NCBI RefSeq assembly: GCF_026151205.1
Contig: NC_087084.1
Span: forward strand, 2,698,845 to 2,762,844
Length of the DNA: 64,000 nucleotides
Reading direction: 5' to 3'
Origin: Bolinopsis microptera
Taxonomy: Eukaryota; Ctenophora; Tentaculata; Lobata; Bolinopsidae
This document shows, one piece after another, positions 36,293 through 57,654 of the stretch (within the stretch, counting starts at the first letter, position 1; every line of letters starts with the position of its first letter). A program made the position numbers and the translations under genes. The notes beneath the pieces were generated by a model that searched no databases, was not told the origin of the DNA, and was given only the letters and a program-made list of their open reading frames with translations.

Positions 36293-36298
36293 TACATA
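36293..36298. repeat. Target-site duplication TACATA, left copy (right copy 62601-62606)
   Basis: TACATA directly precedes the outer element's AGTAGTAATG terminus and directly follows its CATTACTACT end. Six base pairs is the duplication size of Polinton integrases. Confidence 0.95.
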
Positions 36299-37009
36299 AG
36301 TAGTAATGTATGTGCTGATTTGGCTGCAAAAAATATCTATTCTGCACAGTTGTCACGTGGTGTAAAAGAGAGCCTCTGATTGGTCATTAAGGCAGTGTCA
36401 CGTGATTTATATTCGTTTTTGTGAATCTGGTTGGCTAGTTGGCGTTGTCACGTGATCACAGGTAGTCGACCACAGGTGGTCGAACTACAAATTACCATTT
36501 ATGGTATAACAAGGGGACATTGCCTTCTAATATGGAATAGGGTTTCTATCGAGTCACGTGATCAAGGTTAAGACCAATCAGCGTAAAATACGAGTCACGT
36601 GATCAAAAACAGCCAATCTGCTTTACCGGTACCGGATCGACGTGTCTTTTTTGCAAAAAATATCTATTCTGCACAGTTGTCACGTGGTGTAAAAGAGAGC
36701 CTCTGATTGGTCATTAAGGCAGTGTCACGTGATTTATATTCGTTTTTGTGAATCTGGTTGGCTAGTTGGCGTTGTCACGTGATCACAGGTAGTAGACCAC
36801 AGGTGATCGAACTACAGATTACCATTTATGGTATAACAAGGGGACATTGCCTTCTAATATGGAGTAGGGTTTCTATCGAGTCACGTGATCAAGGTTAAGA
36901 CCAATCAGCGTAAAATATCAAAGGATGTAAACATCAGTTTTACACAAAGACAAAAATAGAATGAAACTACAGCTTCCAATTACAAATTTACATATACTGT
37001 ACACAAAAC
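36299..37009 (+). repeat. Outer Polinton left terminal inverted repeat, with a 327-bp internal duplication
   Basis: 711 bp containing two tandem copies of a block, starting 'tgcaaaaaatatctattctg' at 36325 and 36652. Nine CACGTG cores occur (36354, 36399, 36449, 36555, 36596, 36681, 36726, 36776, 36882), interleaved with CCAAT boxes (tgattggtc or accaatcag). The innermost part 'actgtacacaaaac' also ends the right repeat. Confidence 0.95.
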
Positions 37010-37021
37010 TGGAAAGTGAGG

Positions 37022-37130
37022 CCACTCCCTCACTTTACAGATCTAAACATTTAGACTTGTTAAATAAAATATAGCGAGTTTATTGTGTGCAGCAGATGTG
37101 CTGTGTATATAATAGACAATAGTGCGACAT
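37022..37130 (+). promoter_or_regulatory. Early-type promoter, left copy
   Basis: A 109-bp stretch identical, as far as I can read, to 60128-60236, in the same orientation. It includes 'ccactccctcactttacag', 'taaataaaatatagcgagttt' and a TATA box TATATAAT (about 37107). It sits about 60 bp upstream of the ATG of the 37191 gene; the twin sits upstream of the polymerase gene. A CTCACTTT/AAAGTGAG inverted repeat opens it. Confidence 0.7.
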
Positions 37131-37190
37131 CTTCATTTCTCCTTCAGGTATTTTGCGTTTGTGTGTTCTATTTTTCGTTTTCTCTGTAAA

Positions 37191-37778
37191 ATGAGTTTGA
37201 TCAAGAATCTTGGTACCATAAAGAAGCTTGGGTTGAATGGAAAAGGCTATACTAAATTGGTCATCAGCGTAAACTTACCTTTCTGGACTAAATATCTCCA
37301 ATTTAACGTTTGGAGTAAGGATCTTTTATTTAATTCTGCAGAGAAAAAACAGTTCCAGTTAGAGGATCAAGTGGAGGTAAAATATTATTACAATGGTGAC
37401 TTCCCGCAGCTTACAAGTCTAACCAAAACATGCTTGGAATACTGTCCCGTTTGTTATAGTGGTTTGGAAGAAATCGAGAGCCAGAGAATGGAGTGCGGCG
37501 GCTGCAGCATAACTCCTAACGACGAACGGAGAGAGCGAACAAATGATGTGATGACCTTGATCGCGTGCACTGAAAAACAATATCGGTATTCAGTGGGTTA
37601 CAAGTTAAAACTATCATACCCAGAATGGGACTCCTCGTTCATCACTGTTGTGTTTCCTAACAAGTTGTTCCTCTACTCAAAGATACCTCATTTGGAAGTT
37701 GGGAAACTCTACAAAGTCGTGGGTTGGAAGGGTGGAAATTTATTCGATTTACTCGATATATGTGAAGTTGACAATTAA
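37191..37778 (+). CDS. Putative single-strand DNA-binding protein (paired OB-fold, zinc cluster)
   Basis: 195 residues from ATG at 37191 (MSLIKNLGTIKKLG). The N-terminal half alternates beta-strand-like segments (KLVISVNLP, LQFNVWSKDLLF, VEVKYYYNGDFPQL). A central cluster CPVC ... CGGC follows, then a second beta-rich half (YKLKLSYPEWDSSFITVVF, LYKVVGWKG). Two OB-like halves around a Cys cluster is the layout of replication-protein-A-like proteins, which coat single-stranded DNA. The 53301 protein has the same layout. The promoter upstream is a copy of the polymerase promoter, which fits a role in replication. No sequence motif proves the fold, so this is inference from architecture. Confidence 0.5.
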   Translation: MSLIKNLGTIKKLGLNGKGYTKLVISVNLPFWTKYLQFNVWSKDLLFNSAEKKQFQLEDQVEVKYYYNGDFPQLTSLTKTCLEYCPVCYSGLEEIESQRMECGGCSITPNDERRERTNDVMTLIACTEKQYRYSVGYKLKLSYPEWDSSFITVVFPNKLFLYSKIPHLEVGKLYKVVGWKGGNLFDLLDICEVDN

Positions 37779-38107
37779 TGTAACCAACCCAAATTTAGGT
37801 GGTAACATTGAGTTTTATTTTATTGAATTGAAGTTAAATATACATATGTAGCTTTATTTCTCAGTGATAATATACGATTGTTTTATTTGTTCCTCTCAAA
37901 TTCGACAAAACTGAATCGCAAACGTCGTCCCATGCATACAAAAATCACGAAGTACAATAATTTTATACCAAATGTAAACAAACAAATTTTAATTTCCGTA
38001 TCGATCATTGCACATTCAACTTTGGGCAACACACACGCAAGATAAATTGAAAATGAAATTAATTTACGAGTCAGTATAAACTTTAAAAAGTGGTCCCAAT
38101 GGGGAAG
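37779..38107. other. Spacer inside the outer Polinton
   Basis: AT-rich 3' flank of the OB-fold gene with 'gctttattt'-type sequence and no coding pattern, running up to the tRNA-like sequence. Confidence 0.5.
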
Positions 38108-38179
38108 AGGTCAGACGGGATTCGAACCCGTATGTTCCCGCTTGGGAAAGTTACCATTGACTTACTAACCTGAAGACCC
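38108..38179 (-). tRNA. tRNA-like sequence with a non-canonical anticodon arm
   Basis: Read on the minus strand, 72 nt run from GGGTCTT to CTGACCT. The T arm is perfect: ACGGG, loop TTCGAAT, CCCGT, and contains the Pol III B-box GGTTCGAATCC. A 4-bp D stem GTTA/TAAC can form. The acceptor pairs at about five of seven positions. The middle hairpin (TTCCC-AAGC-GGGAA) leaves a 4-nt loop, so no normal anticodon loop forms; a register with loop TTCCCAA lacks a stem. Probably a decayed or tRNA-derived Pol III unit rather than a working tRNA. Its 5' end coincides with the nested element's target duplication. Confidence 0.4.
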
Positions 38180-38184
38180 ATCAG
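38179..38184. repeat. Target-site duplication CATCAG of the nested element, left copy (right copy 49631-49636)
   Basis: CATCAG precedes the AGTAGTATATC terminus and follows the matching GATATACTACT terminus. Six base pairs, like the outer element. Confidence 0.95.
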
Positions 38185-39219
38185 AGTAGTATATCAGGGT
38201 TGAATCTCACCCCGAAACAGTATATATTCTGCTCGACCTTCTGATTGGTTTAAAACCGTCACGTGAGCTGCAGAACAGTGTCTAGTTGGCTATTGAAACC
38301 TGTCACGTGACCAAGGAGCATATCACGTGGGTCAAAAAGCTGTGTCTGATTGGTTGAGTTTCTCCTAAAGACTTCTCTTTGCAAGGAAAAGTGAGAGATG
38401 AGACAACTAGCTCAACAGACGAGCACTTTAATAAGTAAGAGACCAATGTTTATATCTTTTATTTTACAGTTACACTCACATCACACGCAAATTCACATTT
38501 AGTTTCACAAGCATGGGAGCTCACCTGGTCCAACGAGCTTGGTATTTATAATCACTTATACTGCACTCTCATGCGGCTTCTATATTAATATAGAAAGTGA
38601 TACAGTGTCACATGCAACTATAAGTATAATGTTTGGATGCACACTATGATAATCACGACTTGTAGCAACTTAAATCACAAATTTACATTCACTACACTTT
38701 AAATAATGTGATGGCCCATTGGCCCTCATCCCATGACACAATATAATAATTTCAATCCTTGCACAATAAAATGTAATTAACAAGTAACAATGACAGCCGA
38801 CCGTGTGCACTGTCGGCAGGTGTGGTAGAACAAAGAATGTCAATGTAAAATAATCTCGAAATTTATCCCTTTTGAGTCCAGGACCAGTCCCACATTTTTG
38901 TAATATTGTAACCCTACGAATATATTAGCTAAAATTCTGTGTCTTCTTCGATTTTTCGTTCAAGGTCCTACCGTTCGCTTTCTCGTCACGATTGACAATC
39001 TTTTATGCAGGACACTCGTGGAACCTAAAATTATCATACATTAAATATTATTGCACAGAACGCGCGCGCAATTGCGCGTTCCGCGCGAACTGATAACATT
39101 AGCATATTTTTACTGTACGCAAGGAGGAAAATCTAGCAGTAGAAAACTGCCACACAATTTTAGGTAAAAATTCCACGTAACTTTGATAATTTGTTAATAT
39201 CGAAGTTTGAAACATTAAA

Positions 39220-39513
39220 TTAGTCAATGCAAAACTTAGACAAACCTACAAAATCGGCGACAGAGAGCCTACGGATACCGATTCTGTATTCCCCTACGTT
39301 GCGAGCATGCTCCATGTGGATACTGATGTTCCGCGTCTGCCAACCATTCCGTTGCCACAAACGATATCGGACTGGGATACTCTTTTCTAAAGTTGACCTC
39401 CACTCATTGTGTGAGTCCCTTGGCCATTTCTTGATTTGTATTAGAGGGCATCTGAGGTTTATCAAATACTCAGAATAAGAAATAGTAACTCGAAAGAAAT
39501 AGTAACTCGACAT
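39220..39513 (-). CDS. Arm-encoded unknown ORF, left copy, pointing outward
   Basis: 97 codons, identical to the open frame at 48302-48595 in the other arm. A possible splice acceptor (cctcag) precedes its residue Cys23 and a possible donor (gtttgt) follows VADFVG, so the coding part may be one internal exon with a basic, Trp-rich sequence (QIKKWPRDSHNEWRSTLEK, YRLWQRNGWQTRN). No family recognised. It may simply be captured host sequence. Confidence 0.3.
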   Translation of the reverse strand: MSSYYFFRVTISYSEYLINLRCPLIQIKKWPRDSHNEWRSTLEKSIPVRYRLWQRNGWQTRNISIHMEHARNVGEYRIGIRRLSVADFVGLSKFCID

Positions 39514-39918
39514 ATAAGAATACCATAAAACATGTATTACTATTGACCAAATAAATCAATATTCTAATATCTTACCTATATCTAAAACGTTCTGGGTGAA
39601 TGGCTAATCTTTAACATGCCCAAGTTATGTGACACCGGCTTCCTAGAATCGGTCAAATATCAAGACTAAACCATCAATGTTTTGAGCTGGGAACAGCTTC
39701 ACCAGGTCACATGTCTCTTTGAAAACAAGTGAAAGTTGTCTGTTTGAAAGCGAGTCTGATGCCAGGCACTGAATTTTTTGAAATTATGACAATTAATAAT
39801 AATAATTGGTAATAATAATAATTATTTGCCAATAATAGATAATAATTAATAATTGATGATTAAACGCTAGCGGATTAACGTACGTTTTGGTGACATCCAC
39901 CTCCAGCTCAATATTGAG

Positions 39919-40107
39919 TTGTTGTTTGCTGATGTTTATACCGTAACAGGAGGGGTGTCGGGGTACTGCTCAAGGAACCCGGAAAGTCTAATTTTAAATT
40001 TTCCAGAGTCTCAATTTTTCAATTCCTGTCGGTACCAGGTTTTGTATTCTAACTCAATGAAACACCATCCTAAGCTCAAGCCCCTGAGTAAGTATAATGT
40101 TAGATAG
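39919..40107 (+). CDS. Arm-encoded unknown ORF, left copy, pointing inward
   Basis: 62 codons (MLFADVYTVTGG...), identical in the right arm at 47708-47896 on the minus strand. A good splice donor GTAAGT follows Lys-Pro-Leu at 40088, so a first exon is conceivable; no downstream partner exon was found. Family unknown. Confidence 0.25.
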   Translation: MLFADVYTVTGGVSGYCSRNPESLILNFPESQFFNSCRYQVLYSNSMKHHPKLKPLSKYNVR

Positions 40108-41707
40108 GTATCCGTACAGACTCAACTCTGCACCCGTGTCAATATGTTCATTATATGCAAGCCTCTTGATTTATAATATTAAATAATGATATGAAAACAA
40201 TATAATAACACAATAAAATACCAGGGGCTAAAGTTTTTAATTGTGAATTCTGAAACTTGAGTTAAATTTATTGAGTTTTGGAGCAATATGCCTGACATCA
40301 CTTATTTAAATATATCAGCGCAATGTTTGACATAATATCTTGTCAAATTTACGTGGTAAAGTAATGTTATAGACTATAGTGTACTGTTAGAAGTTACAGT
40401 AACGTGGTAAAGTAAGTAATGTTCACTCTTTTTGTGTATTTGAGTACTTACAAAGCTGGATACAGACTACACAGCATGATAATAGCAAATAATAGCAAAT
40501 AATAGCAAATAATAGCAAATAATAGAAACATACTTTAATAGAAATTAATAGCAATAAATAGCAATAAATAGCAATAAATAGCAATAAATAGCAATTAATA
40601 GCAATTAATAGTAAATTATAGCAAATTATAGCAAATAATAGAAAATAATAGCAATACAATGTAAGCAGGGTTAGATAAATTGATACCTTTTTAAAGCAAA
40701 ACCAATAAAACTTTTTTGAAAATGGTCGCAGCAGTGTGTTGGAGTGAACTTTGATAAAAGTTTTATACAACAATGAATAATTAATCATTATATTAATAAA
40801 CTGCTATATAAGAGGTTAAATGGTGCTGTAAAGGATGCCACAAATCAGATCATAGGACTGTTAGCAGTGCACCCTACTGAGAAAATTAATAATATAAGGT
40901 ATAATATAAGGTATTAGAATACATTAGAATGTACAGTAAAACCCTCATATTACCGTTGTTTTTGGGAAAAGATTTAACCCTGATGAATTGGTGTTGGCGG
41001 TAAATCAAGGTTTTAATTTTGGGTTAGACTTGAAGACAATATGTAAAAGAGTATGTGATAGTTTTATCAGAATAAGCAATTGTACAAGCAGAGAAATTAT
41101 TACTGCCCTTAGAGTGATGTTTTTGAGGGGCTTAAAATGAACAATTTTGGCTGATTTCATGGATGATTTTGAGGGCAAAAAATTGGGAAAAATGTAGAAT
41201 TAGGGTCATTGAACACAATAAAACTGCAAAGTGGAAAATTTGAAAAAAGTATATCAGCACAATGTTAGACATAATATCTTTTCAAATTTACGTGGTAAAG
41301 TAATGTTATAGTGTACTGTTAGAAGTTACAGTAACGTGGTAAAGTAAGTAATGTTCACTCTTTTTGTGTATTTGAGTCCTTACAAAGCTGGATACAGACT
41401 ACACAGCATGATAATAGCAAATAATAGCAAATAATAGCAAATAATAGCAAATAATAGCAAATAATAGCAAATAATAGAAATATACAAGTGGTATACCGTT
41501 TGTTTGAACTAAAAAATGACAAAATCGTCACATCCGTCACTGTGGAATTGCCCTGAGGGGTTTTCAAGTGCTAAAGGCCACTGCTTATTGTTAACAGGTT
41601 GGCTGGATGAGAAGACCATGTGATCAAACTGTCACATGCAAAAATAAAACAGGATCAGGAGAATCATCAATTGCACACGCCTCGCCCTCCTTCTATTGTG
41701 TCTGAAT

Positions 41708-42123
41708 GAGGTGAAGACTGAGGGCCAGTGGGCCATTACATTACCAACATTGTTAAAGGTATAATGCACATAGTCACACAATTACACGCAAGCCAGTCAG
41801 TAATTCAGTTGGTCAGTCAGTTAAATGCAATTATTTACAATTTCTATATTATCAGTATGAACAACAAGGGTAATATTATCTTCATTACAGCAGGTAGAGT
41901 GGTGTGATAAGCTCCCTAAATATTGTTGCAGACACTGTTATACAAATAAAATCCTACTATTGGTCTAGAAAAGACACGTCGATACGGGAAAGCAGATAAG
42001 TTGATAAGTAGTATATGTAGCAATCTTATTAAATTGCTCCAAACACTTTTGACAGTTTCCTGCTGTATTATATAATTGAAGATTGTTGTCGCTAAAGCGC
42101 TAATACACATCCACTGAAATATT
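41708..42123. promoter_or_regulatory. Leader and promoter of the zinc-finger gene
   Basis: Unique centre sequence. TATATAAT lies at 42069-42076, 55 bp before the ATG, the same spacing as several outer-element genes and the same octamer as the outer early promoter. Confidence 0.55.
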
Positions 42124-42876
42124 ATGAGCCGAGTATTTTGCTCATTCTGTGACAAATCTTTTGCCAATAAATATAGTTTGGCCACACACAAAAGTCGGTA
42201 TCATCAAGAAAACCGAGAATCACCCTCTACCATTTTGCCGTTCTCAGAAGCTACATCTGGAGTTACTGAAACTAAAATGGATTATCCTGCTTCCACAAAC
42301 TCAGATGCTGATACAACATTATCTCAGGAAGACAGCTCTAACTCTGAGGAAACAAGTGATGATGAAATTTCAAAAGCAGAACCTAGTAATGAATCTGATT
42401 CTGTCCAGCGATACAAAGGCAAACGGAAAGGAGTAGAAAAAGACCAAATAAACAATAATCCTGAGGAAACAAGTGATGATGATGCATCAAAAACAGAATC
42501 TATTAGTGAGCTTGAGTCTGACTCTGTCCAACGCCACAAAGGCAAACGGAAAGGAGTAGCAATCGACCACAAAAACGAAAAAGTACAGGTTAAAATATCA
42601 AAATTACTCAAAACTCTAAACATCCTGTTACAAAGTAAATTGTGCAAGGAGGAAGACAAATGTATAGACTTTTTATTCTCTTACATAATGAAGACGGATC
42701 TGTTTGAGAAGTTTGAGCAGCATCTCATTGACTGTGGACAAGACATTGCTACGATTTTCAGTATGGAAGAACGAGCTTTTTTAGATGCAGTTATCACGAC
42801 TAGTAGTCTATCTGACGTCAACAAACTCATGAATGAGAACGTGAATATTCTCAAGAAGATGCTTAAACTTGCATAA
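42124..42876 (+). CDS. C2H2 zinc-finger protein of the nested element
   Basis: 250 residues. One C2H2 finger at the N-terminus (C6, C9, H22, H27; spacing 2-12-4). Then a Ser/Asp/Glu-rich region holding a duplicated module: EETSDDEISK...SDSVQRYKGKRKGV and EETSDDDASK...SDSVQRHKGKRKGV, each acidic then ending in a basic KGKRKGV patch that could be a nuclear signal. The C-terminal 100 residues are helix-rich (ISKLLKTLNILLQSKL, a LFEKFEQHLIDCGQD stretch, VNKLMNENVNILKKMLKLA) with leucine spacing that suggests protein contacts. It is the only convincing gene of the nested element and would be nuclear. A role in binding its own ends, as an adaptor to integrase or as a regulator is inference. Confidence 0.7.
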   Translation: MSRVFCSFCDKSFANKYSLATHKSRYHQENRESPSTILPFSEATSGVTETKMDYPASTNSDADTTLSQEDSSNSEETSDDEISKAEPSNESDSVQRYKGKRKGVEKDQINNNPEETSDDDASKTESISELESDSVQRHKGKRKGVAIDHKNEKVQVKISKLLKTLNILLQSKLCKEEDKCIDFLFSYIMKTDLFEKFEQHLIDCGQDIATIFSMEERAFLDAVITTSSLSDVNKLMNENVNILKKMLKLA

Positions 42877-43135
42877 AATTATCGTCCGGAAGATTTTTGA
42901 ACTTTAAAGCCAAACGTTGATAGTTGTTGATTAGGATTTTGAATATAGAGCTGATGAATAAAGTTTATTTAAAGTTATCTTCGAAAATCTAAACATGTGT
43001 TTCATTGTCTACATTATAGTTAAAAATAATACATTATTGTTATAAAATATAACGTCATGTCACGATCGTGCATGATAGCATAAGGTATAACAATGGAGGT
43101 GTTTCCATCAAACATCGAATTTATTAGTATTGAGT

Positions 43136-43690
43136 ATTGAGTATTGCATATTCATTATGCAGTATTCAGTATTCATTCAGTATTCATTCAGTATTCAATC
43201 AGTATTCATTCAGTATTCAGGATTCATTCAGTATTCAGTATTCATTCAGTATTCATTCGGTATTCATTCGATATTCGTTTAGTATTCGTTCAGTATTCAG
43301 TATTCATTCAGTATTCGTTCAGTATTCATTCAGTATTCATTCAGTATTCAATCAGTATTTATTCAGTATTCATTCAGTATTTATTCAGTATTCATTCAGT
43401 ATTTATTCAGTATTCATTCAGTATTTATTCAGTATTCATTCAGTATTCATTCAGTATTCATTCAGTATTCATTCAGTATTCTGTATTTATTCAGTCTTCA
43501 TTCAGTATTCATTCAGTATTCATTCAGTATTCATTCAGTATTCATTCAGTAATCATTCAGTATTCATTCAGTATTCAATATTCATTCAGTATTCATTCAG
43601 TATTCAGTATTCGTTCAGTATTCATTCAGTATTCATTCAGTATTCATTCAGTATTCATTCAGTATTCATTCAGTATTCAGTACTTAGTAT
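43136..43690. repeat. 11-bp minisatellite, about 50 copies
   Basis: Unit cattcagtatt repeated for about 555 bp with small variants (catt/cgtt/tatt). As 11 is not a multiple of three and the unit has no stop in one orientation, two overlapping long open frames appear; both are artefacts. Confidence 0.95.
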
Positions 43691-46071
43691 ACTACCTGAT
43701 GGAGATCTGATATAATTAAAGAAAGTAGAAAATATATAGACAAGTCTAGATAAGAGATTGAATTGTTGTCAAATACATTACACAGATGTTACGGCTATAC
43801 AATGACTTATTATTCTTGAGGCTGTAGAGTAACCATTCTGAGAGTGTTCTTTATAAATTAGATTTCATATAAAACAGTCAGTGTTACGTAACCGACTACA
43901 GTCAAAAGAATTAAAAACAGTACACTTAACATTAAATTGAATAATAATTAGGTGAAGTAGAGACAAATTTTACGCAACACACAACTGAACGCCAAGTAGT
44001 AGTGTAAGATACGTTCCGGGTGTTGTCCAAAACTGTACACTCTAGTTAAATTTAGCTAGCACATAAGTCATTATATCACTTTATCAGTACATTGTACAAA
44101 GGTCGCCTCGAATCAGATGTTCATAATGCCGATAGACAACTGATGTAATTATACGTGAACGTGTACACTATACATTCAACGACTTCTGCTGTGTGAAGTG
44201 AGCACCACACAATCACAATTAATTAAATGATTCTTTGTGGCAATCGTAGACATCGAAGTGCACACTCAACTACACTCTGCTACTAGAGTAAACAGACATA
44301 TTCATTGACACTGAATTACTTCACAGAAAACAAAAGAAAAGGAGCATCTGTATGATGGGGTACACTTGTCCAGGATACTAGTCAATTTAACAATAGAAGG
44401 AAGTTGGCACCTGTTCAATTGATGATTCCAAGCAGAACACCTGCTCGAAGGGATACACTTGTCTACACTACTAGTCAACTTGATCATACTTTTATTCCTA
44501 TGTACGGTTATACTGTAACATGAGGATGATCGTCGACTCTTTCTACTTGATAGTCAATCAGTAAACCATCCGAGCAGGTGTTCTGCAGGAGCCACCAATT
44601 GAACAGATGACACCTTCCTCCTACAATACTAAATGCAAAAGTTATATATATATAGGGAGAAATTATAAAATCTTTCCTTGTATTTTACAAAGCATAGTTG
44701 TTGGTGATTAGTGGTGCAGTTGAATTATGTGACCCGAACCTGTAATGTAAAAACACTTCAAGAACCATTAAATCCTTATATGGTATAATTTTACTCAAAT
44801 TTCATATTATGAAAGCTATAAGCATGTCTTAATGTGTGGAATAATTCTACACTCCTCACGATGCTCTTGATCTAGGAAGAATGCGTTTTGCTGTAGTGTG
44901 CCACACTCCACATGGACACATAGCGGGGAAAGCCAAGAGCAAGTCTATTAGCTCAGGATAACAACAATTTCAGGAAAACAACAATTTTATTTAGTATCAA
45001 TTAAAGCAAACAAAATAATATTTTATATATAACTATCTAGACCTTTATAAATCAAGAGGCTTGCATATAATGAACATATTGACACGGGTGCAGAGTTGAG
45101 TCTGTAGGGAACTTAGTAGTTTCAGATCCTTGTTTAACTTGCCGTACAGCAAGGTCATCCACTACTTTAGCCCGGCGAGGCACATAACTCCCTCTACAAC
45201 TCCATATCAAATGTTTCATATATACTAGCTAAGTTCACAAGATATATCCTTGTGTTTGAGAAGAGCTCGTTAGAACTGCTTCCTTTCCCTTCAGTATCCC
45301 ACAGTCTCTCAAGTTTCGTAACTGCCAGAGAACTCTCTTAAACAATTACTAGACTCGGTGATTATAAATCAAGAGGCTAGCATATAATGAACATATTGAC
45401 ACGGGTGCAGAGTTGAGTCTGTATGGAACCAGAAATCTAAGGGGACTTGGAGTAGCAATAGAGTGGCTAGAAGGTACATATACCTTTAACAAAAATACGT
45501 CAAAAAGAATCCAGGGTGGTACAGGATCGGAGAGTGCAGACCATGTAGTTTACGCACCCACCCTTGCCTCCTAAATTCTTGGTTGGATAAGCATTTATGC
45601 GAACTTGGTCGTTTATACTCCAAGTCCCTGCGTTGTAAAAGTTTATTTGTTTTTAAAAAATTTACCTCAGTTAACTTCATTCAACAATAAAAATTTCAAT
45701 ATAAAAATCAAATAAATTAAACAATCGAATAAATTATCAGTTATAAATTTGATTTGATGAAAAATTTGTGATATAAGACAAATCGTTAAAAACGCCCAAA
45801 GTAGATCTAGATCTAAGAGCTTTTCAGCATATAGCACAATCATGATAGTAATAGTAAGTAGGTATGTGCCGCTGCAATTACTGTAATTTAAAATTGCTTG
45901 GAGTCCAAGTATCTTTTAAGTCAGCTGCCTGTGATTGTAGTAATAGTGCTTTGGTTCTCAGCTTTATCAGGTTAATGGAAGTTTCTAGGTAATTGCTTGA
46001 GGTAAGGATTATTTTTATAAACAATATTCCAAAGCTTGGCTGCATTAAACAAGAAAGTATTAGATTTGTTT
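43691..46071. other. Right half of the nested element's unique centre
   Basis: No gene recognised. Two direct repeats of 'atacacttgtc.a..atactagtcaa' (about 44360 and 44456), and two copies (about 45052-45110 and 45363-45425) of a 60-bp block beginning 'ataaatcaagaggct' that also occurs in each arm (near 40119-40182 inverse, and 47640-47703). The small frame 45486-45680 has no pattern. Confidence 0.5.
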
Positions 46072-47707
46072 ATTCAGACACAATAGAAGGAGGGCGAGGC
46101 GTGTGCAATTGATGATTCTCCTGATCCTGTTTTATTTTTGCATGTGACAGTTTGATCACATGGTCTTCTCATCCAGCCGACCTGTTAACAATAAGCAGTG
46201 GCCTTTAGCACTTGAAAACCCCTCAGGGCAATTCCACAGTGACGGATGTGACGATTTTGTCATTTTTTAGTTCAAACAAACGGTATACCACTTGTATATT
46301 TCTATTATTTGCTATTATTTGCTATTATTTGCTATTATTTGCTATTATTTGCTATTATCATGCTGTGTAGTCTGTATCCAGCTTTGTAAGGACTCAAATA
46401 CACAAAAAGAGTGAACATTACTTACTTTACCACGTTACTGTAACTTCTAACAGTACACTATAACATTACTTTACCACGTAAATTTGAAAAGATATTATGT
46501 CTAACATTGTGCTGATATACTTTTTTCAAATTTTCCACTTTGCAGTTTTATTGTGTTCAATGACCCTAATTCTACATTTTTCCCAATTTTTTGCCCTCAA
46601 AATCATCCATGAAATCAGCCAAAATTGTTCATTTTAAGTCCCTCAAAAACATCACTCTAAGGGCAGTAATAATTTCTCTGCTTGTACAATTGCTTATTCT
46701 GATAAAACTATCACATACTCTTTTACATATTGTCTTCAAGTCTAACCCAAAATTAAAACCTTGATTTACCGCCAACACCAATTCATCAGGGTTAAATCTT
46801 TTCCCAAAAACAATGGTAATATGAGGGTTTTACTGTACATTCTAATGTATTCTAATACCTTATATTATACCTTATATTATTAATTTTCTCAGTAGGGTGC
46901 ACTGCTAACAGTCCTATGATCTGATTTGTGGCATCCTTTACAGCACCATTTAACCTCTTATATAGCAGTTTATTAATATAATGATTAATTATTCATTGTT
47001 GTATAAAACTTTTATCAAAGTTCACTCCAACACACTGCTGCGACCATTTTCAAAAAAGTTTTATTGGTTTTGCTTTAAAAAGGTATCAATTTATCTAACC
47101 CCGCTTACATTGTATTGCTATTATTTGCTATTATTTGCTATAATTTGCTATAATTTACTATTAATTGCTATTAATTGCTATTAATTGCTATTTATTGCTA
47201 TTTATTGCTATTTATTGCTATTTATTGCTATTAATTTCTATTAAAGTATGTTTCTATTATTTGCTATTATTTGCTATTATTTGCTATTATTTGCTATTAT
47301 TTGCTATTTATATTATTTGCTATTATTTGCTATTATCATGCTGTGTAGTCTGTATCCAGCTTTGTAAGTACTCAAATACACAAAAAGAGTGAACATTACT
47401 TACTTTACCACGTTACTGTAACTTCTAACAGTACACTATAGTCTATAACATTACTTTACCACGTAAATTTGACAAGATATTATGTCAAACATTGCGCTGA
47501 TATATTTAAATAAGTGATGTCAGGCATATTGCTCCAAAACTCAATAAATTTAACTCAAGTTTCAGAATTCACAATTAAAAACTTTAGCCCCTGGTATTTT
47601 ATTGTGTTATTATATTGTTTTCATATCATTATTTAATATTATAAATCAAGAGGCTTGCATATAATGAACATATTGACACGGGTGCAGAGTTGAGTCTGTA
47701 CGGATAC

Positions 47708-47896
47708 CTATCTAACATTATACTTACTCAGGGGCTTGAGCTTAGGATGGTGTTTCATTGAGTTAGAATACAAAACCTGGTACCGACAGGAATTGAAAAA
47801 TTGAGACTCTGGAAAATTTAAAATTAGACTTTCCGGGTTCCTTGAGCAGTACCCCGACACCCCTCCTGTTACGGTATAAACATCAGCAAACAACAA
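47708..47896 (-). CDS. Arm-encoded unknown ORF, right copy, pointing inward
   Basis: Same 62-codon frame as 39919-40107. See that entry; coding status doubtful. Confidence 0.25.
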   Translation of the reverse strand: MLFADVYTVTGGVSGYCSRNPESLILNFPESQFFNSCRYQVLYSNSMKHHPKLKPLSKYNVR

Positions 47897-48301
47897 CTCA
47901 ATATTGAGCTGGAGGTGGATGTCACCAAAACGTACGTTAATCCGCTAGCGTTTAATCATCAATTATTAATTATTATCTATTATTGGCAAATAATTATTAT
48001 TATTATCAATTATTATTATTAATTGTCATAATTTCAAAAAATTCAGTGCCTGGCATCAGACTCGCTTTCAAACAGACAACTTTCACTTGTTTTCAAAGAG
48101 ACATTTGACCTGGTGAAGCTGTTCCCAGCTCAAAACATTGATGGTTTAGTCTTGATATTTGACCGATTCTAGGAAGCCGGTGTCACATAACTTGGGCATG
48201 TTAAAGATTAGCCATTCACCCAGAACGTTTTAGATATAGGTAAGATATTAGAATATTGATTTATTTGGTCAATAGTAATACATGTTTTATGGTATTCTTA
48301 T

Positions 48302-48595
48302 ATGTCGAGTTACTATTTCTTTCGAGTTACTATTTCTTATTCTGAGTATTTGATAAACCTCAGATGCCCTCTAATACAAATCAAGAAATGGCCAAGGGAC
48401 TCACACAATGAGTGGAGGTCAACTTTAGAAAAGAGTATCCCAGTCCGATATCGTTTGTGGCAACGGAATGGTTGGCAGACGCGGAACATCAGTATCCACA
48501 TGGAGCATGCTCGCAACGTAGGGGAATACAGAATCGGTATCCGTAGGCTCTCTGTCGCCGATTTTGTAGGTTTGTCTAAGTTTTGCATTGACTAA
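48302..48595 (+). CDS. Arm-encoded unknown ORF, right copy, pointing outward
   Basis: Same 97-codon frame as 39220-39513. Identity between arms cannot be taken as selection, as the whole arms are nearly identical. Confidence 0.3.
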   Translation: MSSYYFFRVTISYSEYLINLRCPLIQIKKWPRDSHNEWRSTLEKSIPVRYRLWQRNGWQTRNISIHMEHARNVGEYRIGIRRLSVADFVGLSKFCID

Positions 48596-49997
48596 TTTAA
48601 TGTTTCAAACTTCGATATTAACAAATTATCAAAGTTACGTGGAATTTTTACCTAAAATTGTGTGGCAGTTTTCTACTGCTAGATTTTCCTCCTTGCGTAC
48701 AGTAAAAATATGCTAATGTTATCAGTTCGCGCGGAACGCGCAATTGCGCGCGCGTTCTGTGCAATAATATTTAATGTATGATAATTTTAGGTTCCACGAG
48801 TGTCCTGCATAAAAGATTGTCAATCGTGACGAGAAAGCGAACGGTAGGACCTTGAACGAAAAATCGAAGAAGACACAGAATTTTAGCTAATATATTCGTA
48901 GGGTTACAATATTACAAAAATGTGGGACTGGTCCTGGACTCAAAAGGGATAAATTTCGAGATTATTTTACATTGACATTCTTTGTTCTACCACACCTGCC
49001 GACAGTGCACACGGTCGGCTGTCATTGTTACTTGTTAATTACATTTTATTGTGCAAGGATTGAAATTATTATATTGTGTCATGGGATGAGGGCCAATGGG
49101 CCATCACATTATTTAAAGTGTAGTGAATGTAAATTTGTGATTTAAGTTGCTACAAGTCGTGATTATCATAGTGTGCATCCAAACATTATACTTATAGTTG
49201 CATGTGACACTGTATCACTTTCTATATTAATATAGAAGCCGCATGAGAGTGCAGTATAAGTGATTATAAATACCAAGCTCGTTGGACCAGGTGAGCTCCC
49301 ATGCTTGTGAAACTAAATGTGAATTTGCGTGTGATGTGAGTGTAACTGTAAAATAAAAGATATAAACATTGGTCTCTTACTTATTAAAGTGCTCGTCTGT
49401 TGAGCTAGTTGTCTCATCTCTCACTTTTCCTTGCAAAGAGAAGTCTTTAGGAGAAACTCAACCAATCAGACACAGCTTTTTGACCCACGTGATATGCTCC
49501 TTGGTCACGTGACAGGTTTCAATAGCCAACTAGACACTGTTCTGCAGCTCACGTGACGGTTTTAAACCAATCAGAAGGTCGAGCAGAATATATACTGTTT
49601 CGGGGTGAGATTCAACCCTGATATACTACTCATCAGGACCACTGTAAAAAGAAAAATGTTGCTATACTTATAATCATACTTTAAGTGTTGTGTCAGATCA
49701 CGTGAACAAGGTGTGAACCATACATTGCTGTTAATTACTACACTGTTACCAGCTGTTATACCAGTGATTTGATAACGTATTGCTTATGATTGAGAATAAC
49801 TCGTCAACTCATCAGTGAATAAAAATTACAAGTGTCCGCGCGCGCGCGCGCACAGTTACGCTATCTGACAGAAGTTGTCTATCCTTAAATGTTTGGCGCT
49901 CGTATATAGCTATGCTTCAAGTTCCAGTTAGATACATGTGCAGAATGCGCGGCGCAACACAGTAGAGTGACGTTCTACAATTACGCTATACAGACCC

Positions 49998-50005
49998 TAT
50001 ATAAA
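49998..50005 (+). promoter_or_regulatory. TATA box TATATAAA before the 50093 gene
   Basis: 95 bp before the ATG. A (CG)n run at about 49837-49850 and a GC-rich patch precede it. Confidence 0.55.
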
Positions 50006-50092
50006 CAAAATTGATTGATTAATATTCATATTTATTACTATTTACATAAGTTACATACACACTCATATTTCGTTTGCGCGCGTGATCGTAGC

Positions 50093-50635
50093 ATGGTAAC
50101 GCGATTACAATACTCTGAACCAAAATATGTAAAATCTAAAGCAGTAAACCCTGATCATGAAATCGAGAACATTTATTTTTCTTTAGACTTACGAATACCA
50201 AAACATTTTTACGCGTGTACTAAGTCTGAAGTTCGTTCATTTGATAAGATTACGCAAACACCTAACAAATTTAGCAAAAGTTTGCCAAAGTTTGGACTAA
50301 CTGAGTGCTTTAAAATATTTAACCTTGAGCTAGAATCACAAAAACCGTGGCTAAACCAAGAATTTAAGAATTTATACACAAAGAAGAAACCCAAAAGAGT
50401 TCGTATAAGAATACTTGAAATCGAAAGCAGTGTATACGAACTACCTTATTGTAGGAGAAATAATCCAATTCTGATTCCCGAATCGGGTCGACTGCACGCG
50501 CCCCACTGCAAAAACACCAATCAAGAAACTGTTGATGTTATTGGTGACCGTACTTTTCAAAATAGACAATTCCATTTACAGGATATTAAACAAAGGATAA
50601 GCCAGTTGCAAGCTGCAAGCACACCTGAATGTTAA
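50093..50635 (+). CDS. Outer Polinton protein of unknown function
   Basis: 180 residues from ATG at 50093 (MVTRLQYSEPKYV). Upstream in-frame codons lack an ATG, so I take this start. Basic overall (KKKPKRVRIRIL), no signal peptide, no membrane segment, three Cys in the last third. First gene after the nested insertion, with its own TATA box. I do not recognise it. Its place next to a penton-like gene and the strong promoter allow a structural or early accessory role, without evidence for either. Confidence 0.6.
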   Translation: MVTRLQYSEPKYVKSKAVNPDHEIENIYFSLDLRIPKHFYACTKSEVRSFDKITQTPNKFSKSLPKFGLTECFKIFNLELESQKPWLNQEFKNLYTKKKPKRVRIRILEIESSVYELPYCRRNNPILIPESGRLHAPHCKNTNQETVDVIGDRTFQNRQFHLQDIKQRISQLQAASTPEC

Positions 50636-50707
50636 ACGAGTTACCTACCAGCTAGAAGCAACGTCTCTTGTTTAATGAGAAACTTCACATTTTCCCCTCA
50701 GTTATTC

Positions 50708-50715
50708 TATAAAAG
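50708..50715 (+). promoter_or_regulatory. TATA box TATAAAAG before the 50767 gene
   Basis: 59 bp before the ATG, in the short spacer after the 50093 gene. Confidence 0.7.
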
Positions 50716-50766
50716 CGTTCCTGCTATCTCATAGTTTAGTTCCATATCGCGTGTGACATCATCATC

Positions 50767-51567
50767 ATGATCAAATCTACAATGGATGAACTAAAAACAA
50801 GTTTAATTGTTTCTGGACGAGGGAAAATAATAAAAACCATGTTTGATCGACCCTTGTCTGTTCAGGGGAAATCTATTCGACTAAAATCTGTGAACTTTCC
50901 GATTCCACAGAACCAACCTATCCGATATACATTTTCTGTCAAAGATGTTACAGGAAATATTCATACTCTTTCTCTACCACCAGAGAACTGGTATTGGTCT
51001 GAAGACATATTGAAAACAATGTATACAGTTTTGTGTGAGCTCTACGATTCTCTAGATTTTAACAACTCACAAACTTACATTATCGACAGCGAGTCACAAG
51101 ATGTTGAAATAGTCAACTACAGCAAACCAAGATTCGTTTCTGTACCTTATACAGCCATATATTACGGCGAAAGCGGTCTGAAGATTGTGCCAGACCAATC
51201 GTCGCAGAGTGTATTCTCATTATTTGTGAAGAGAGAAAATCGTTCTAATGATAAAAGACTTGCGTATATACCTCATATACCTTATTCATCTAGTACTCAA
51301 CAGGACACTGAAAACGAATTAAATAGTACTCAAGCTGTGTACTTGTTTTGTGATGCTATCAGACCCATATATATTGGAAGAAGTAAAAGACAAATACTAG
51401 ATGTGATAAATATGTCACGTGATGGGAATTACTTTAGTAATTCCCAAGGCGAATTTCACGAATTTGCGGTTGATGAATTGATGCAGATTAGTTTTTATTT
51501 TCAGACGGTTGACGGTCTTGTGATAGGTTTTGACGATCCGGTAGTCATCCATTTCTTAATAAGCTAG
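50767..51567 (+). CDS. Second penton-like (minor capsid) protein candidate
   Basis: 266 residues. Order of features parallels the penton-like protein at 56424: an N-terminal strand region (FDRPLSVQGKSIRLKSVNFP), a middle 'LPPENWYWSEDILKTMYTVL' segment like 'IPNGFYDRSCEILRAAYKVM' there, then AVYLFCDAIRPIYIGRSK, then GEFHEFAVDELMQISFYFQT and DGLVIGFDDPVVIHF near the end. The last blocks match, in order, VVCGLLYSSVVKDSIINN, SFHEFQNPSYKPLSVSSF, and EDVKFD...LNLHIR in the other protein. This is the pattern of single jelly-roll pentons of Polintons, which close the five-fold vertices. Divergent paralog, fibre-like derivative or second vertex protein are all possible. Confidence 0.55.
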   Translation: MIKSTMDELKTSLIVSGRGKIIKTMFDRPLSVQGKSIRLKSVNFPIPQNQPIRYTFSVKDVTGNIHTLSLPPENWYWSEDILKTMYTVLCELYDSLDFNNSQTYIIDSESQDVEIVNYSKPRFVSVPYTAIYYGESGLKIVPDQSSQSVFSLFVKRENRSNDKRLAYIPHIPYSSSTQQDTENELNSTQAVYLFCDAIRPIYIGRSKRQILDVINMSRDGNYFSNSQGEFHEFAVDELMQISFYFQTVDGLVIGFDDPVVIHFLIS

Positions 51568-51761
51568 ACATATTAAATTATACAATTGAACAGGTGCCAA
51601 ATCAAATTACACAAAGTAACCTACTTCATACTTGATACATGAATCTATGTTGGTCCTCACTTACTTTTCATGTAATCAGACAGTGTTACATTTTGTTGTA
51701 AGAAAAAAAAGACCTACTTAAGGAGCGACACAAAGGACGACTCTCATTAACCTATTAAACA

Positions 51762-52235
51762 ATGGACTTCCCCAGCGAAATTAATCTCGATGTAATTGAG
51801 GATGAATACAAGTCTATCTACAAAAAGCATTACCAGACAATTCATACAAGAGTTACTAAAGGTCGTCTTAGAACGGTGTACCATTTTCTCGTCACTGGCG
51901 ATTACTCACGGAATAAAGCTAAAGAATATATTTCAAAAATTGATATGGAATTAAATCGTAATAATACCTACAAAATCAACGTGGCTTTCGGCTTTATTCT
52001 GAGGAATCGTCGCACAGGTGATTTGAGGTTCTTTCATCCGTCACAAAATTCAATGCTGTACGAATTACCAATGAAGGTAAAAAATAGAAAAGATATCAAA
52101 AAGGTCCTTGATGACTTGGAGGGTGAAGATGCTAGAGCTTACGCAATGGCTCATAGACCCTCGACTGTATGGAGAATGGAGAAAATCGTTTGTGTTCGCT
52201 TCGATGTTTATAAATTGGCGACGCCAGTGACATAA
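51762..52235 (+). CDS. Conserved Polinton-type protein, function unknown
   Basis: 157 residues. The central part INVAFGFILRNRRTGDLRFF, followed by HPSQNSMLYELP, a Lys/Asp-rich helix, AYAMAHRPSTVWRMEKI and VCVRFDVYKL, is a pattern I associate with a conserved Polinton/adintovirus protein ('SFGFILRN...TGELRYFH..N', 'RPxSKW', 'VxFxVxK') of unestablished function. That link is from memory, not from a search. No TATA box stands out upstream; the spacer is 194 bp. Confidence 0.6.
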   Translation: MDFPSEINLDVIEDEYKSIYKKHYQTIHTRVTKGRLRTVYHFLVTGDYSRNKAKEYISKIDMELNRNNTYKINVAFGFILRNRRTGDLRFFHPSQNSMLYELPMKVKNRKDIKKVLDDLEGEDARAYAMAHRPSTVWRMEKIVCVRFDVYKLATPVT

Positions 52236-52279
52236 ACTTTCATTTACGTTTTTGTTCAGTTACGTTTCGTGTCAAAATT

Positions 52280-52699
52280 ATGGATTTACCGAGTTATGTT
52301 GCTTATCGTATGTATTGTGATGTTAATGCGATACCAAGTCGCTACAACATAACATTTGAGAAGGTCTTCAGGGAGTTAACGGATTTTTCTCTTGCTTACA
52401 CTAAGCAATACGCCGCCCAATTGTTTCATAAAATTCCAGGAAACCGAACCTCTATTGATGAGTTACTTACAGATACGAAGAACATTTTCACGGGTATTGT
52501 AAAAGAATTGGAGACTGTCGATAGTGTACTGGCGATTCAAAGTCTATTTATTGCATCTTATTATCTGATGATCAAATACAAGAGTAATCCTCAAATGTGT
52601 GGACATGTGTCATTTTGGTTTGATGTTTTTACATACAAATCAAAAGGTTGGGACAAAATGTTGAGTAACCCTCGTGGTAACACTAACTCTGTCACGTGA
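52280..52699 (+). CDS. Small helical protein, weak Bcl-2-like candidate
   Basis: 139 residues, predicted mostly alpha-helical, no signal peptide, no C-terminal membrane anchor. Three spots recall Bcl-2 proteins in the right order: a BH3-like FRELTDFSLAY at about 30-40; a hydrophobic central helix pair (about 69-98, with VLAIQSLFIASYYLMI); and a BH2-like SKGWDKML at about 121-128 after an aromatic stretch (FWFDVF). The BH1 'NWGR' core is not conserved (VDSV at the place). Bcl-2 proteins hold back apoptosis, and adenovirus E1B-19K is a viral example. Short length and missing BH1 keep this tentative; it could be another small helical protein. It ends in the promoter of the next gene (CACGTG near 52693). 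Confidence 0.35.
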   Translation: MDLPSYVAYRMYCDVNAIPSRYNITFEKVFRELTDFSLAYTKQYAAQLFHKIPGNRTSIDELLTDTKNIFTGIVKELETVDSVLAIQSLFIASYYLMIKYKSNPQMCGHVSFWFDVFTYKSKGWDKMLSNPRGNTNSVT

Positions 52700-52715
52700 C
52701 GTCATAGACTCGTCC

Positions 52716-52723
52716 TATAAAAC
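52716..52723 (+). promoter_or_regulatory. TATA box TATAAAAC with upstream CACGTGACGTCA
   Basis: 58 bp before the ATG at 52774. Immediately upstream, at about 52693-52704, an E-box and a CRE-like TGACGTCA overlap, inside the end of the previous coding region. Confidence 0.65.
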
Positions 52724-52773
52724 AGAGGCGTGACAGTAAAACTCTCATTTCTGTGTATTACGTTTGTGTTTGT

Positions 52774-53326
52774 CATGACTTTGAAACTAAGTAATTCTAG
52801 CAGCAGAACCTGGCTGGGTTATGTGACAGCTGAGATTGTGCAAAGATGCATAACAATGTGCGTTGAAGAATGCTTGGCCTGCAGAAACGGTGTTATCAGT
52901 CCACTTTTACATTTTCACAACGAGTTGAGTTTGATGGATAAAATTCGCCGATACTTGGGGCGTGTTGTCATTGATCTTGAGTATCTTTTCGATCAATTCA
53001 TTTTACAATTTGGATGGTTTGCTCTAAATCGAAGAGACTACATTCAACTGGCAGAAATCTTTCTTAATGTCAGCACACCTGAAGCAATAATGTATGGAAA
53101 GTACATCACACATCAAAACGATCACGCCATTTATGGACAACAAGATTCTAGATCGGCTGCTGAATCTATTGTCATAGAAAGTACCTTGGATGGGGCTGTA
53201 AAACCCAAACCGACTGAATGCAGCAGTTTAAAGCGACAACCTTCATCTGACAAGAAGCCGATAAAAGCAAAACGCAGTAAAAAGGCTATCACTTCTCAAG
53301 ATGCTGCTCCAGGGAACAATCTATGA
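52774..53326 (+). CDS. Cys-rich Polinton protein with basic C-terminus, unknown function
   Basis: 183 residues from ATG at 52774. An N-terminal Cys cluster (CITMCVEECLAC) leads into NGVISPLLHFH, then helical KIRRYLGRVVIDLEYLFDQF and a segment FLNVSTPEAIMYGKYI. The last 40 residues are Ser/Lys-rich with RQPSSDKKPIKAKRSKKA, a likely nuclear signal or nucleic-acid contact. The 'C-x2-C-x-N-G-x-x-S-P-L-x-H' core resembles a family I have seen in other Polintons, unnamed as far as I know. The end overlaps the next gene by 26 bp in another frame. An earlier GTG in frame (52730) falls at the transcription start region and is not a plausible start. Confidence 0.6.
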
Positions 53327-53831
53327 TATCACTGAGCGCGAAAAATACACCAGAATTGTGGTCGTTGTGGAAACAGGATTTCAATCTGATGTCTACTTAT
53401 TTCGGGTGACCGCTGAGTTACAAGATGAAATAGAGTTGGGGGCCGGTGTACTGTTATCTGGTAACTATACAACCCGCGATGGATGCAGGCGATTTGTTTT
53501 AGAATCAATAATAAGATGCGAATTCAAGTCATGTGATATTTGTAAGCTTCCATTGACAGCAGAGCAGTGCGTCTTAAAACATGACAATGAAATCCAGCGA
53601 TTAAAGGGAAAGTGGACAGTCCTATACAAAAACTACTCCGGTGGCTACTTAGAGTTTTTTCTTCAAAAAGATGATATGGTCTTTCCAATAACAATTGCAA
53701 GCAAATCATGGCTATATAATTTATTGGACGATATCACAGAAGATGACGTAGTTGAGATAGAAGGGTGGCGACACAAAGACAAAACTGTTCTAACGGCTTG
53801 TGGGAAAGTTGACTACCGAGATGTTATATAA
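53301..53831 (+). CDS. Second putative paired OB-fold protein
   Basis: 176 residues. First half beta-rich (TRIVVVVETGF, DVYLFRVTAELQDEIELGAGVLLSG), then Cys residues in CEFKSCDICKLPLTAEQC, then a second beta-rich half (KWTVLYKNYSGGYLEFFLQ, VVEIEGWRHKDKTVLTACGKV). The layout (OB, Cys cluster, OB with 'V-x-G-W' near the end) is the same as in the 37191 protein (KVVGWKG), so the two look like distant paralogs, possibly partners in a single-strand-binding complex. Starts inside the previous gene, suggesting translation from a shared or overlapping transcript. Confidence 0.5.
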   Translation: MLLQGTIYDITEREKYTRIVVVVETGFQSDVYLFRVTAELQDEIELGAGVLLSGNYTTRDGCRRFVLESIIRCEFKSCDICKLPLTAEQCVLKHDNEIQRLKGKWTVLYKNYSGGYLEFFLQKDDMVFPITIASKSWLYNLLDDITEDDVVEIEGWRHKDKTVLTACGKVDYRDVI

Positions 53832-53833
53832 GG
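53825..53833 (+). promoter_or_regulatory. TATA box TATATAAGG before the 53870 gene
   Basis: 45 bp before the ATG; it overlaps the stop codon of the preceding OB-fold gene. Confidence 0.7.
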
Positions 53834-53869
53834 ACACTGTTTACTTTTAGAATCTCATTAAGTTTCAAG

Positions 53870-54508
53870 ATGCGAAATATATTATTGAATTTTTCTTTAG
53901 TGATTGTTGTCGTATTAACTGTAGAATTGTCCAAATTTGAAAATTTTAAGATTTCATTTGATCCAAAATGTCTTGAGTATTTTCTGTTTAACGGTTCGAG
54001 CAATTACGCGTATTTTCATCATAGAAATGGACAATTTGAGCTGTGGTTAGGTCAGAATGAAATAAATTATGCACTCTACACAGCTAGAAACAGTTCAACG
54101 CTCCTTTTCGAGTGGAATGGTTTATCACCGAAAGTAAATCACCAAAAAATGAAACTCGTGCTTTACGAAGGAACTATTCACCGCCCAATGAAATTTGACT
54201 CCGAGTATTACCTATGTAACCTTACTAGCGTGATAGGGGGTGACTCTGAATACCACGATCCTCTGGTTCATGTCGAACCTTTCTCGTATAAATGCAAGCC
54301 TCGATTAGATTTTGGTCTAATTTTTGCATTGGTAATAATATCAACGGCTAGTTTGCTTCTGTTGCTATACACTAAAAATGAATCTATCAAAACTCTACTT
54401 AGATCTAGGCTTTCCCGGATCATACAGTGGTGCCGACAAATTTTTTCGAGAAGTGAAGAAAGTATATCCCAAAGTGACGAAGAAGGAAATTTCACATACT
54501 CTACGTAA
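53870..54508 (+). CDS. Type I membrane glycoprotein of the Polinton
   Basis: 212 residues. Signal peptide at 1-20 (LLNFSLVIVVVLTVELS), an ectodomain of about 125 residues with N-glycosylation sequons (NGSS, NSST, NLTS) and four Cys, one in a YYLCNLT context, a transmembrane helix at about 148-168 (FGLIFALVIISTASLLLLLY) and a cytoplasmic tail of about 40 residues rich in Ser/Glu with a final YST. Immunoglobulin-like beta-sandwich is possible (FEWNGLS, then KLVLYEG, then EYYLC). Not recognised as a fusion protein: no obvious fusion peptide. Adenovirus E3 glycoproteins have this layout, but homology is not shown. Its last 131 bp overlap the integrase gene in another frame. Confidence 0.65.
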   Translation: MRNILLNFSLVIVVVLTVELSKFENFKISFDPKCLEYFLFNGSSNYAYFHHRNGQFELWLGQNEINYALYTARNSSTLLFEWNGLSPKVNHQKMKLVLYEGTIHRPMKFDSEYYLCNLTSVIGGDSEYHDPLVHVEPFSYKCKPRLDFGLIFALVIISTASLLLLLYTKNESIKTLLRSRLSRIIQWCRQIFSRSEESISQSDEEGNFTYST

Positions 54509-57203: not shown

Positions 57204-57218
57204 TTGTTGATTCGTAGC

Positions 57219-57226
57219 TATATAAG
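57219..57226 (+). promoter_or_regulatory. TATA box TATATAAG before the pVI-like gene
   Basis: 55 bp before ATG 57274. Confidence 0.75.
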
Positions 57227-57273
57227 TAGGTGAACATTTCATTTGCAATTAATTATTGAACTGTCCTGACAGA

Positions 57274-57597: not shown

Positions 57598-57599
57598 GC

Positions 57600-57607: not shown

Positions 57608-57654
57608 GCCAGTTGTAAGCTGGCTCTCATTCTTGACTCAACACTAACAGCACG

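Follow-up and report, generated by a model that had tools for sequence, protein, structure and literature searches.

How can an element in which no integrase frame is found have been inserted in the manner of a Polinton? The question is raised by a 64,000-nucleotide stretch of the genome of the ctenophore Bolinopsis microptera (NC_087084.1, positions 2,698,845 to 2,762,844, forward strand; hereafter the window, whose positions are used below), where an element of 11,446 base pairs (bp) with long inverted arms and a single C2H2 zinc-finger gene lies inside a Polinton. Duplications of 6 bp and AG...CT ends with long inverted repeats are the mark of Polintons, or Mavericks. As judged from sequence comparisons across the genome, the element is probably one of a group of non-autonomous Polinton satellites, which carry a conserved gene and would change helpers by recombination of their ends.

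An element with a 6-bp duplication inside a Polinton

The element is composed of the following features.

38185..49630, no strand assigned: type A satellite element, 11,446 bp, delimited by its tips, duplication and empty site
38179..38184, + strand: target-site duplication CATCAG, left, from the tips read
49631..49636, + strand: target-site duplication CATCAG, right, from the tips read
38185..41707, + strand: left inverted arm, 3,523 bp, from the arm comparison
46072..49630, - strand: right inverted arm, 3,559 bp; the C12 copy has a short Polinton-derived end here instead
38185..38638, + strand: terminal module of 454 bp, left, matching the C10 Polinton's right end at 99.8% and unrelated beyond
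49177..49630, - strand: the same terminal module of 454 bp, right end

The tip at 38185 reads AGTAGTATATCAGGG and the tip at 49630 is its reverse complement, which gives the element the form AGTAG...CTACT. Between the arms lies a centre (41708-46071) with one convincing gene, the C2H2 frame at 42124-42876. When the window was re-read, the boundaries, the CATCAG duplication, the AG...CT ends, the lengths of both arms and the single C2H2 gene were found exactly as described in the initial annotation. The empty site that it had suggested looking for was found as well: L011, the C10 Polinton that is a paralogue of the host, reads GAAGACC-CATCAG-GACCAC, a clean site without insert. Because this paralogue keeps the empty site with CATCAG only once, the insertion and its 6-bp duplication are directly shown. 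The structure of the element as observed is confirmed to be no chance pattern.

Between the left and right arms there are 7 substitutions, and decamer repeats vary in length at 3 places; the outer 2,320 aligned bases of the arms hold 2 substitutions. Long inverted repeats are difficult to assemble, and an assembly artefact at the arms had been raised as evidence that could count against the initial annotation. Such an artefact is extremely improbable: the arms differ at these 7 sites and in 3 lengths, the duplication and its flanks agree with the empty site, and arms of at least 0.9 kb occur at eight other loci, in elements with other kinds of ends (types B, C, D and E below).

Ends shared with Polintons and the frames between them

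The genome searched comprises 264.65 Mb on 232 contigs. A search with the arm tip recovered further copies, several of them as inverted pairs, and five end types were distinguished: A (AGTAGTATATCAGG), B (AGTAGATGGTAAG), C (AGTAGTGTATTGTG), D (AGTAGTGTAAGAGG) and E (AGTAGTATATATAC). When the outermost 1 to 1.2 kb of different types were compared, blastn found similarity only between C and D, over about 280 bp. Both tips were read in 26 elements, recognised as inverted pairs of tip matches (2 of type A, 5 of B, 4 of C, 9 of D and 6 of E, with the C21 element counted under D and the type C pairs numbering at least four); a possible D pair, C6:20828605/20838485, with 3 mismatches on one side, stands outside the 26. 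The duplication is exactly 6 bp in 25/26 of these elements, and it is 6 bp in both of the two Polintons with two readable tips. The initial annotation had proposed that further copies with 6-bp duplications should be sought and had named duplications of another length as contrary evidence; the former were recovered, and none of the latter occurs among the 26.

The ends of types A, B and E are shared with Polintons of the same genome. The type A module (454 bp) corresponds at 99.8% to the right end and at 94.2% to the left end of the C10 Polinton, and tips that match type A over a shorter length (173 bp at 99.4%) lie beside Polinton-like frames on C5 and C9. The type B module (465 bp) corresponds at 93.8% to both ends of the Polinton at C1:8045654-8064101, which has the duplication ATGGGT, pieces of integrase and DNA polymerase B (Pfam, below cut-off) and an ATPase recognised by eye. 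The type E module (518 bases) corresponds at 95.4% to a tip at C11:10504926; integrase pieces lie 7 kb before this tip, with a reverse-transcriptase frame between. At the partner loci of A, B and E the integrase domain rve was matched at E 7.4e-10, 3.5e-5 and 8.6e-6, respectively, the last two below the Pfam cut-off.

Past 454, 465 and about 520 bp, respectively, the similarity of the A, B and E ends to Polintons stops abruptly. The body of the type B element L029, that of C21 and the E arms that were read gave no match to the compared Polinton loci, apart from 74 bp in L029, and beyond its ends the window element gave two weak stretches, of 70 and 78%. No transposase or polymerase frame, whether of an RVE integrase or of a protein-primed DNA polymerase B, was found in the four elements read whole (the window element, the C12 copy in two pieces, L029 at C13:15280165 and C21), nor in the parts read of two further type A copies, on C9 and C11; inspection of the satellite frame lists by eye likewise showed no ATPase, protease or capsid genes. 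Related copies with their own transposase, which had been named in advance as speaking against a satellite, were thus not seen in these four whole and two partial elements. The type A copy at C12:13329870-13343382 is itself interrupted, at the end of its 11-bp tandem repeat, by about 5.5 kb of inserted DNA whose reverse-transcriptase frames look by eye like those of a LINE.

Because the ends are shared with Polintons, the duplications are 6 bp in 25 of 26 elements and no transposase frame is seen, there is strong support for the view that the satellites are non-autonomous and would be moved by Polinton machinery in trans, as had been proposed for the window element on account of its missing integrase. 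Another transposase that makes 6-bp duplications, for example one of the Ginger2 kind, is a very improbable mover. According to the part of PMC2836005 that was available, Ginger2 does favour AT-rich targets of 6 bp and has an integrase that clusters close to the Polinton one. However, the same part gives its ends as TGTNR and its target as RTATAY, while the ends here are AGTAG; no AT-rich motif appears in the 27 duplications read, and the satellite ends match Polintons over 454-520 bp.

Some further observations concern the ends. In the first 600 bp of the ends (38185-38784 for A, 36299-36898 for the host Polinton, and other ends), CACGTG occurs 3 times in A, 5 times in B, 9 times in the host Polinton, 7 times in the C1 Polinton and 0 times in the tested C, D and E ends. 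The target site in the window has, at a distance of 7 bp, a tRNA-like sequence (38107-38171; Rfam score 33.7 bits), and a tRNA-like box was also seen by eye close to a D-type tip. From C13:1213749 onwards, a unit similar to the C-type tip is repeated in a long tandem array with a period of 42 bp. Inverted D-type subterminal pairs at C11:13687283-13693330 and C4:10998774-11003003 have no C2H2 gene among the matches listed.

The conserved gene, a probable exchange of ends and the host

The centre of the window element contains the following features.

42124..42876, + strand: C2H2 gene, 250 amino acids, with one zinc finger, an acidic stretch, KGKRKG motifs and a helical C-terminal part (predicted)
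43122..43690, + strand: tandem repeat with the 11-bp unit ATTCAGTATTC, downstream of the C2H2 gene, also in elements with other ends
41940..44196, + strand: stretch colinear with the right half of C21 (gene, tandem repeat, subterminal part), 71-92% in pieces
44016..44196, - strand: D-type end remnant, matching at 91.8% the part of the C21 element that lies 237-420 bp inside its tip
44384..44691, + strand: stretch next to the D-type remnant, 78% similar to subterminal C1 Polinton sequence

A protein search of the genome with the C2H2 gene gave 192 matches. Among the matches listed there are 94 gene positions (rows for the other half of a gene being dropped, and the two halves of a split C6 gene counting as two), which form at least 57 clusters, and 37/57 of these hold two or more positions. 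Many copies stand as inverted pairs, and in L029 and C21 the gene lies inside both arms. A C2H2 position is present among the matches listed in 25/26 of the tip-paired elements, C5:19430338-19437448 being the exception. For comparison, 70 integrase matches were reduced to 32 loci by merging pieces and dropping weak matches, mostly frames of at least 500 amino acids that are likely retrotransposons. Just one of the 57 clusters, the nested window element, lies within 30 kb of any of these loci; the C2H2 gene was therefore rejected as a normal Polinton gene.

The ratio of nonsynonymous to synonymous substitution rates (dN/dS) was obtained for 26/28 pairs among 8 gene copies and ranged from 0.25 to 0.60; between families, complete genes gave 0.32-0.44. 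Judging by the aligned copies, purifying selection acts on the gene even though the ends around it differ or are exchanged. The protein itself is matched by Pfam zf-C2H2 at E 0.0011, below the curated cut-off. Its C-terminal part is predicted to be helical in poor models (pLDDT 44 and 60), with which Foldseek returned nothing better than E 0.84 and no known fold. An MDM2/MDM4 (p53-binding) domain was considered for this part on 31 residues alike (E 0.06) and rejected for now, since PI3-kinase stands in the same list at E 0.11, no Pfam SWIB match was obtained and the models are poor. A pattern scan of IMG/VR gave no confirmed relatives of the C2H2 protein or of the integrase. From the kind of protein it is, the product may bind the tandem repeat or the ends, of satellite or helper DNA. 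At C12:1936717-1937655 (L068:618-1556), between flanking inverted repeats, the N-terminal half of a C2H2 protein is followed in frame by a Polinton-type (adenovirus-type) protease, whose part is matched by Peptidase_C5 at E 0.0045, below cut-off. A similar frame of 313 amino acids, at C11:8533316, stands among the matches listed.

The same gene is thus found between different ends, and the C12, C21 and window elements bear on how this came about. The type A copy on C12 has terminal repeats of just 454 bp, and at one end the match to the left end of the C10 Polinton goes on for about 160 bases past the repeat, at 99.4%. Because Polinton sequence continues past its repeat, the ends of this copy derive from a Polinton. 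The C21 element (6,119 bp, duplication AATTTG, a 98.8% palindrome) has a body 90-92% to C-type elements and a first 420 bp 85% to D-type ends; since body and tip match different types, C21 is a C-type body with other, D-type, ends. In the window element, the stretch colinear with C21 runs into the D-type remnant, a fossil end that is also recovered when the genome is searched with a D-type end, and the outermost 237 bp of C21 have no counterpart there. In the simplest reading, a C/D-type satellite would have lost its tip and gained the ends of a type A Polinton, although the direction is read from the remnant's position. A C-type body with D-type ends, together with a D-type remnant inside a type A element, suggests that helpers are switched by end capture.

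These elements might instead be ordinary internal-deletion derivatives of Polintons, occasionally mobilised and with a passenger gene, without any lasting satellite lineage. Such defective derivatives are common among DNA transposons, the C12 copy has Polinton sequence past its terminal repeat, and the C9 copy has a Polinton-related frame (203 amino acids, 58% identical overall to the host Polinton frame 50015-50635, with the last 90 residues nearly identical). However, the homologous gene occurs with five end types in at least 57 clusters and with dN/dS of 0.32-0.44 between families, the L029 and C21 bodies and the read E arms are unlike the compared Polinton loci bar the 74 bp in B, and body and end recombine. 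We therefore regard this alternative as improbable and prefer a satellite group with a conserved gene and exchanged ends.

A satellite of this kind might work as follows. The terminal module of about 450-520 bp is taken to hold the recognition signals for the protein-primed polymerase and the integrase of the helper. A Polinton that accepts these ends would supply both enzymes, and the satellite would insert with a 6-bp duplication. The satellite would contribute its ends and the C2H2 protein, its body being mostly of non-Polinton origin and bringing the conserved gene and the tandem repeat. When the body acquires new ends by recombination with another Polinton, its helper would change. The window element is probably such a recombinant, in which one C/D-type satellite arm and the remnant of an old end were set between type A Polinton ends; the long arms of this copy would have arisen afterwards, when the left 3.5 kb were copied in inverted orientation in place of its right end.

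In the window element, the right end is an inverted copy of the left 3.5 kb; C12, with its 454-bp repeats, does not show this. Type E arms are 99.5-99.7% identical within elements versus 97.0% between elements, and type D arms 99.8-100% versus 88.5%. This likeness may result from replication of a free, extrachromosomal linear molecule or from repair in the chromosome. There is a little less than an even chance that the arms grew in the chromosome, where a break in one end would be repaired by copying the other, rather than during replication of a free molecule. Growth by break repair has been proposed for Galileo, and inverted-repeat expansion has been reported for Polintons, in the portion of PMC3573991 available to us; arm length also varies within type A (454 bp in C12 versus 3.5 kb in the window). 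The eight other loci with arms of at least 0.9 kb and the many inverted gene pairs, on the other hand, make the long-armed forms seem mobile, and the E and D arms are more alike within than between elements, although gene conversion could do the same. The idea of a Polinton satellite in the initial annotation thus held and became broader, from a single element to a large group that exchanges ends, whereas the long arms turned out to be a variable trait.

Several observations weigh against a helper-dependent satellite group. One of the 26 tip-paired elements, C1:24430799-24434016, has no duplication, and for two type A copies, on C9 and C11, no ends were found. Among the partner Polintons, that on C10 has a damaged left tip, the left end of the type E partner on C11 was not found, and the integrase frame is split in all three, although complete frames exist elsewhere, including in the host. 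No Polinton partner was found for the C- and D-type ends when genome end matches were compared with integrase loci. The interiors read are those of four whole and two partial elements, which include few elements of types B, C and D and none of type E. Finally, type C arms (95.5 and 98.2% within elements versus 97.1% between) are not clearly more alike within an element.

The surrounding Polinton could be read over the following features.

36299..62600, no strand assigned: host Polinton carrying the insert, about 14.9 kb without it
36293..36298, + strand: host Polinton duplication TACATA, left
62601..62606, + strand: host Polinton duplication TACATA, right
54381..55292, + strand: host Polinton integrase, complete frame (rve, E 2.8e-11)
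59007..59465, + strand: host Polinton protease, adenovirus-type (Peptidase_C5, E 1.1e-4)
60489..60920, + strand: 143-residue remnant of a putative N-terminal polymerase B frame, read by eye; the C10 frame has 725 residues

The nesting described in the initial annotation is borne out by the host's own 6-bp duplication and by the empty site in its C10 paralogue; being a single case, it shows no sign beyond chance. Two relatives with the host Polinton's ends span 18.8 kb, versus about 14.9 kb for the host without insert. The 725-residue C10 frame, putatively the N-terminal part of polymerase B, had no match in a Pfam search. Over long stretches the host body and the C10 Polinton are 97.5-99.7% identical, and the two integrases are 92-98% identical, piece by piece. 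However, the host ends gave no blastn match to the element, with which they have just the first bases AGTAGTA in common. The host and C10 Polintons thus combine one kind of integrase with two kinds of end. It had been suggested that the integrase of the surrounding element might serve the insert. In favour of this, the host integrase is complete and close to that of C10, but the ends differ and the polymerase is incomplete; the host may thus be an integrase source. The odds of the satellite explanation are unaffected by the host's role, because that explanation is independent of which Polinton helps. A 437-residue frame at 57652-58962 was considered as a capsid gene and given no name, since it has no Pfam match and its one PDB match is a TnsC ATPase (E 0.005). 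At C4:10346841-10361055 (14.2 kb), host-type Polinton ends are doubled on both sides, with no integrase or C2H2 gene among the matches listed; this is perhaps another non-autonomous Polinton without the gene.

Probable Polinton satellites and known systems

With a large satellite group, in part recent, whose ends match those of candidate helpers, it becomes testable whether Polintons act as viruses that have satellites of their own. The group offers a shared end of about 450-520 bp for helper recognition, candidate pairs of helper and satellite, and the prediction of free linear satellite DNA, and its near-perfect palindromes bear on the replication or repair of such linear DNA. End capture, if true, would be a way for a parasite of a virus-like transposon to pass from one host element to another. 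A bolder proposal, which we find rather unlikely as yet, is that Polinton viruses have satellites in the true sense in this genome. These would be linear DNAs that depend on a helper and encode a DNA-binding protein under selection; they would be replicated and packaged with helper proteins and would outlive the loss of a helper by capturing the ends of the next. If so, the chromosomes would hold a fossil record of helper changes.

In 6-bp duplications, AG...CT ends and inverted repeats the satellites resemble Polintons, and their modules have near-identical counterparts in Polintons of this genome. They differ from Polintons in that no integrase, polymerase, ATPase, protease or capsid frames were seen in them, in a body that carries a C2H2 gene and is largely of other origin, and in arms that far exceed the shared terminal module. 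Small elements that use the enzymes of a larger virus-like element are known among the virophages, transpovirons and other satellites of DNA viruses. In the present satellites no capsid gene was found, and their helper is itself a transposon-like provirus. Defective adenovirus genomes, which are linear DNA with protein-primed replication, carry an inverted copy of one end in place of the other; the satellites, by contrast, are inherited with the genome and have a selected gene of their own.

Galileo, a Foldback element of Drosophila, is alike in its variable, long and repetitive inverted repeats, its non-autonomous copies and its chimeric subfamily ends, as described in the accessible part of PMC3573991. 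The same part gives it a P-superfamily transposase and 7-bp duplications, whereas the satellite duplications are exactly 6 bp, and that portion of the account includes neither a virus-like helper nor a conserved satellite gene. The Tlr elements of Tetrahymena were once suggested to be non-autonomous Polinton derivatives. The available part of PMC4028283, which reports this, has them branching off early and encoding a capsid protein of their own, whereas no capsid gene was found in the satellites. The consulted parts of PMC6035795, PMC6431247 and PMC12368964 contain nothing on satellites of Polintons.

A search of the open-access literature, with preprints, Repbase and most subscription journals outside it, gave no account of non-autonomous, defective or satellite Polintons or Mavericks. 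Non-autonomous transposons as such are common. What is new here, in comparison with these systems, is a satellite group of several families with a selected gene and, as the recombinant elements suggest, exchange of ends.

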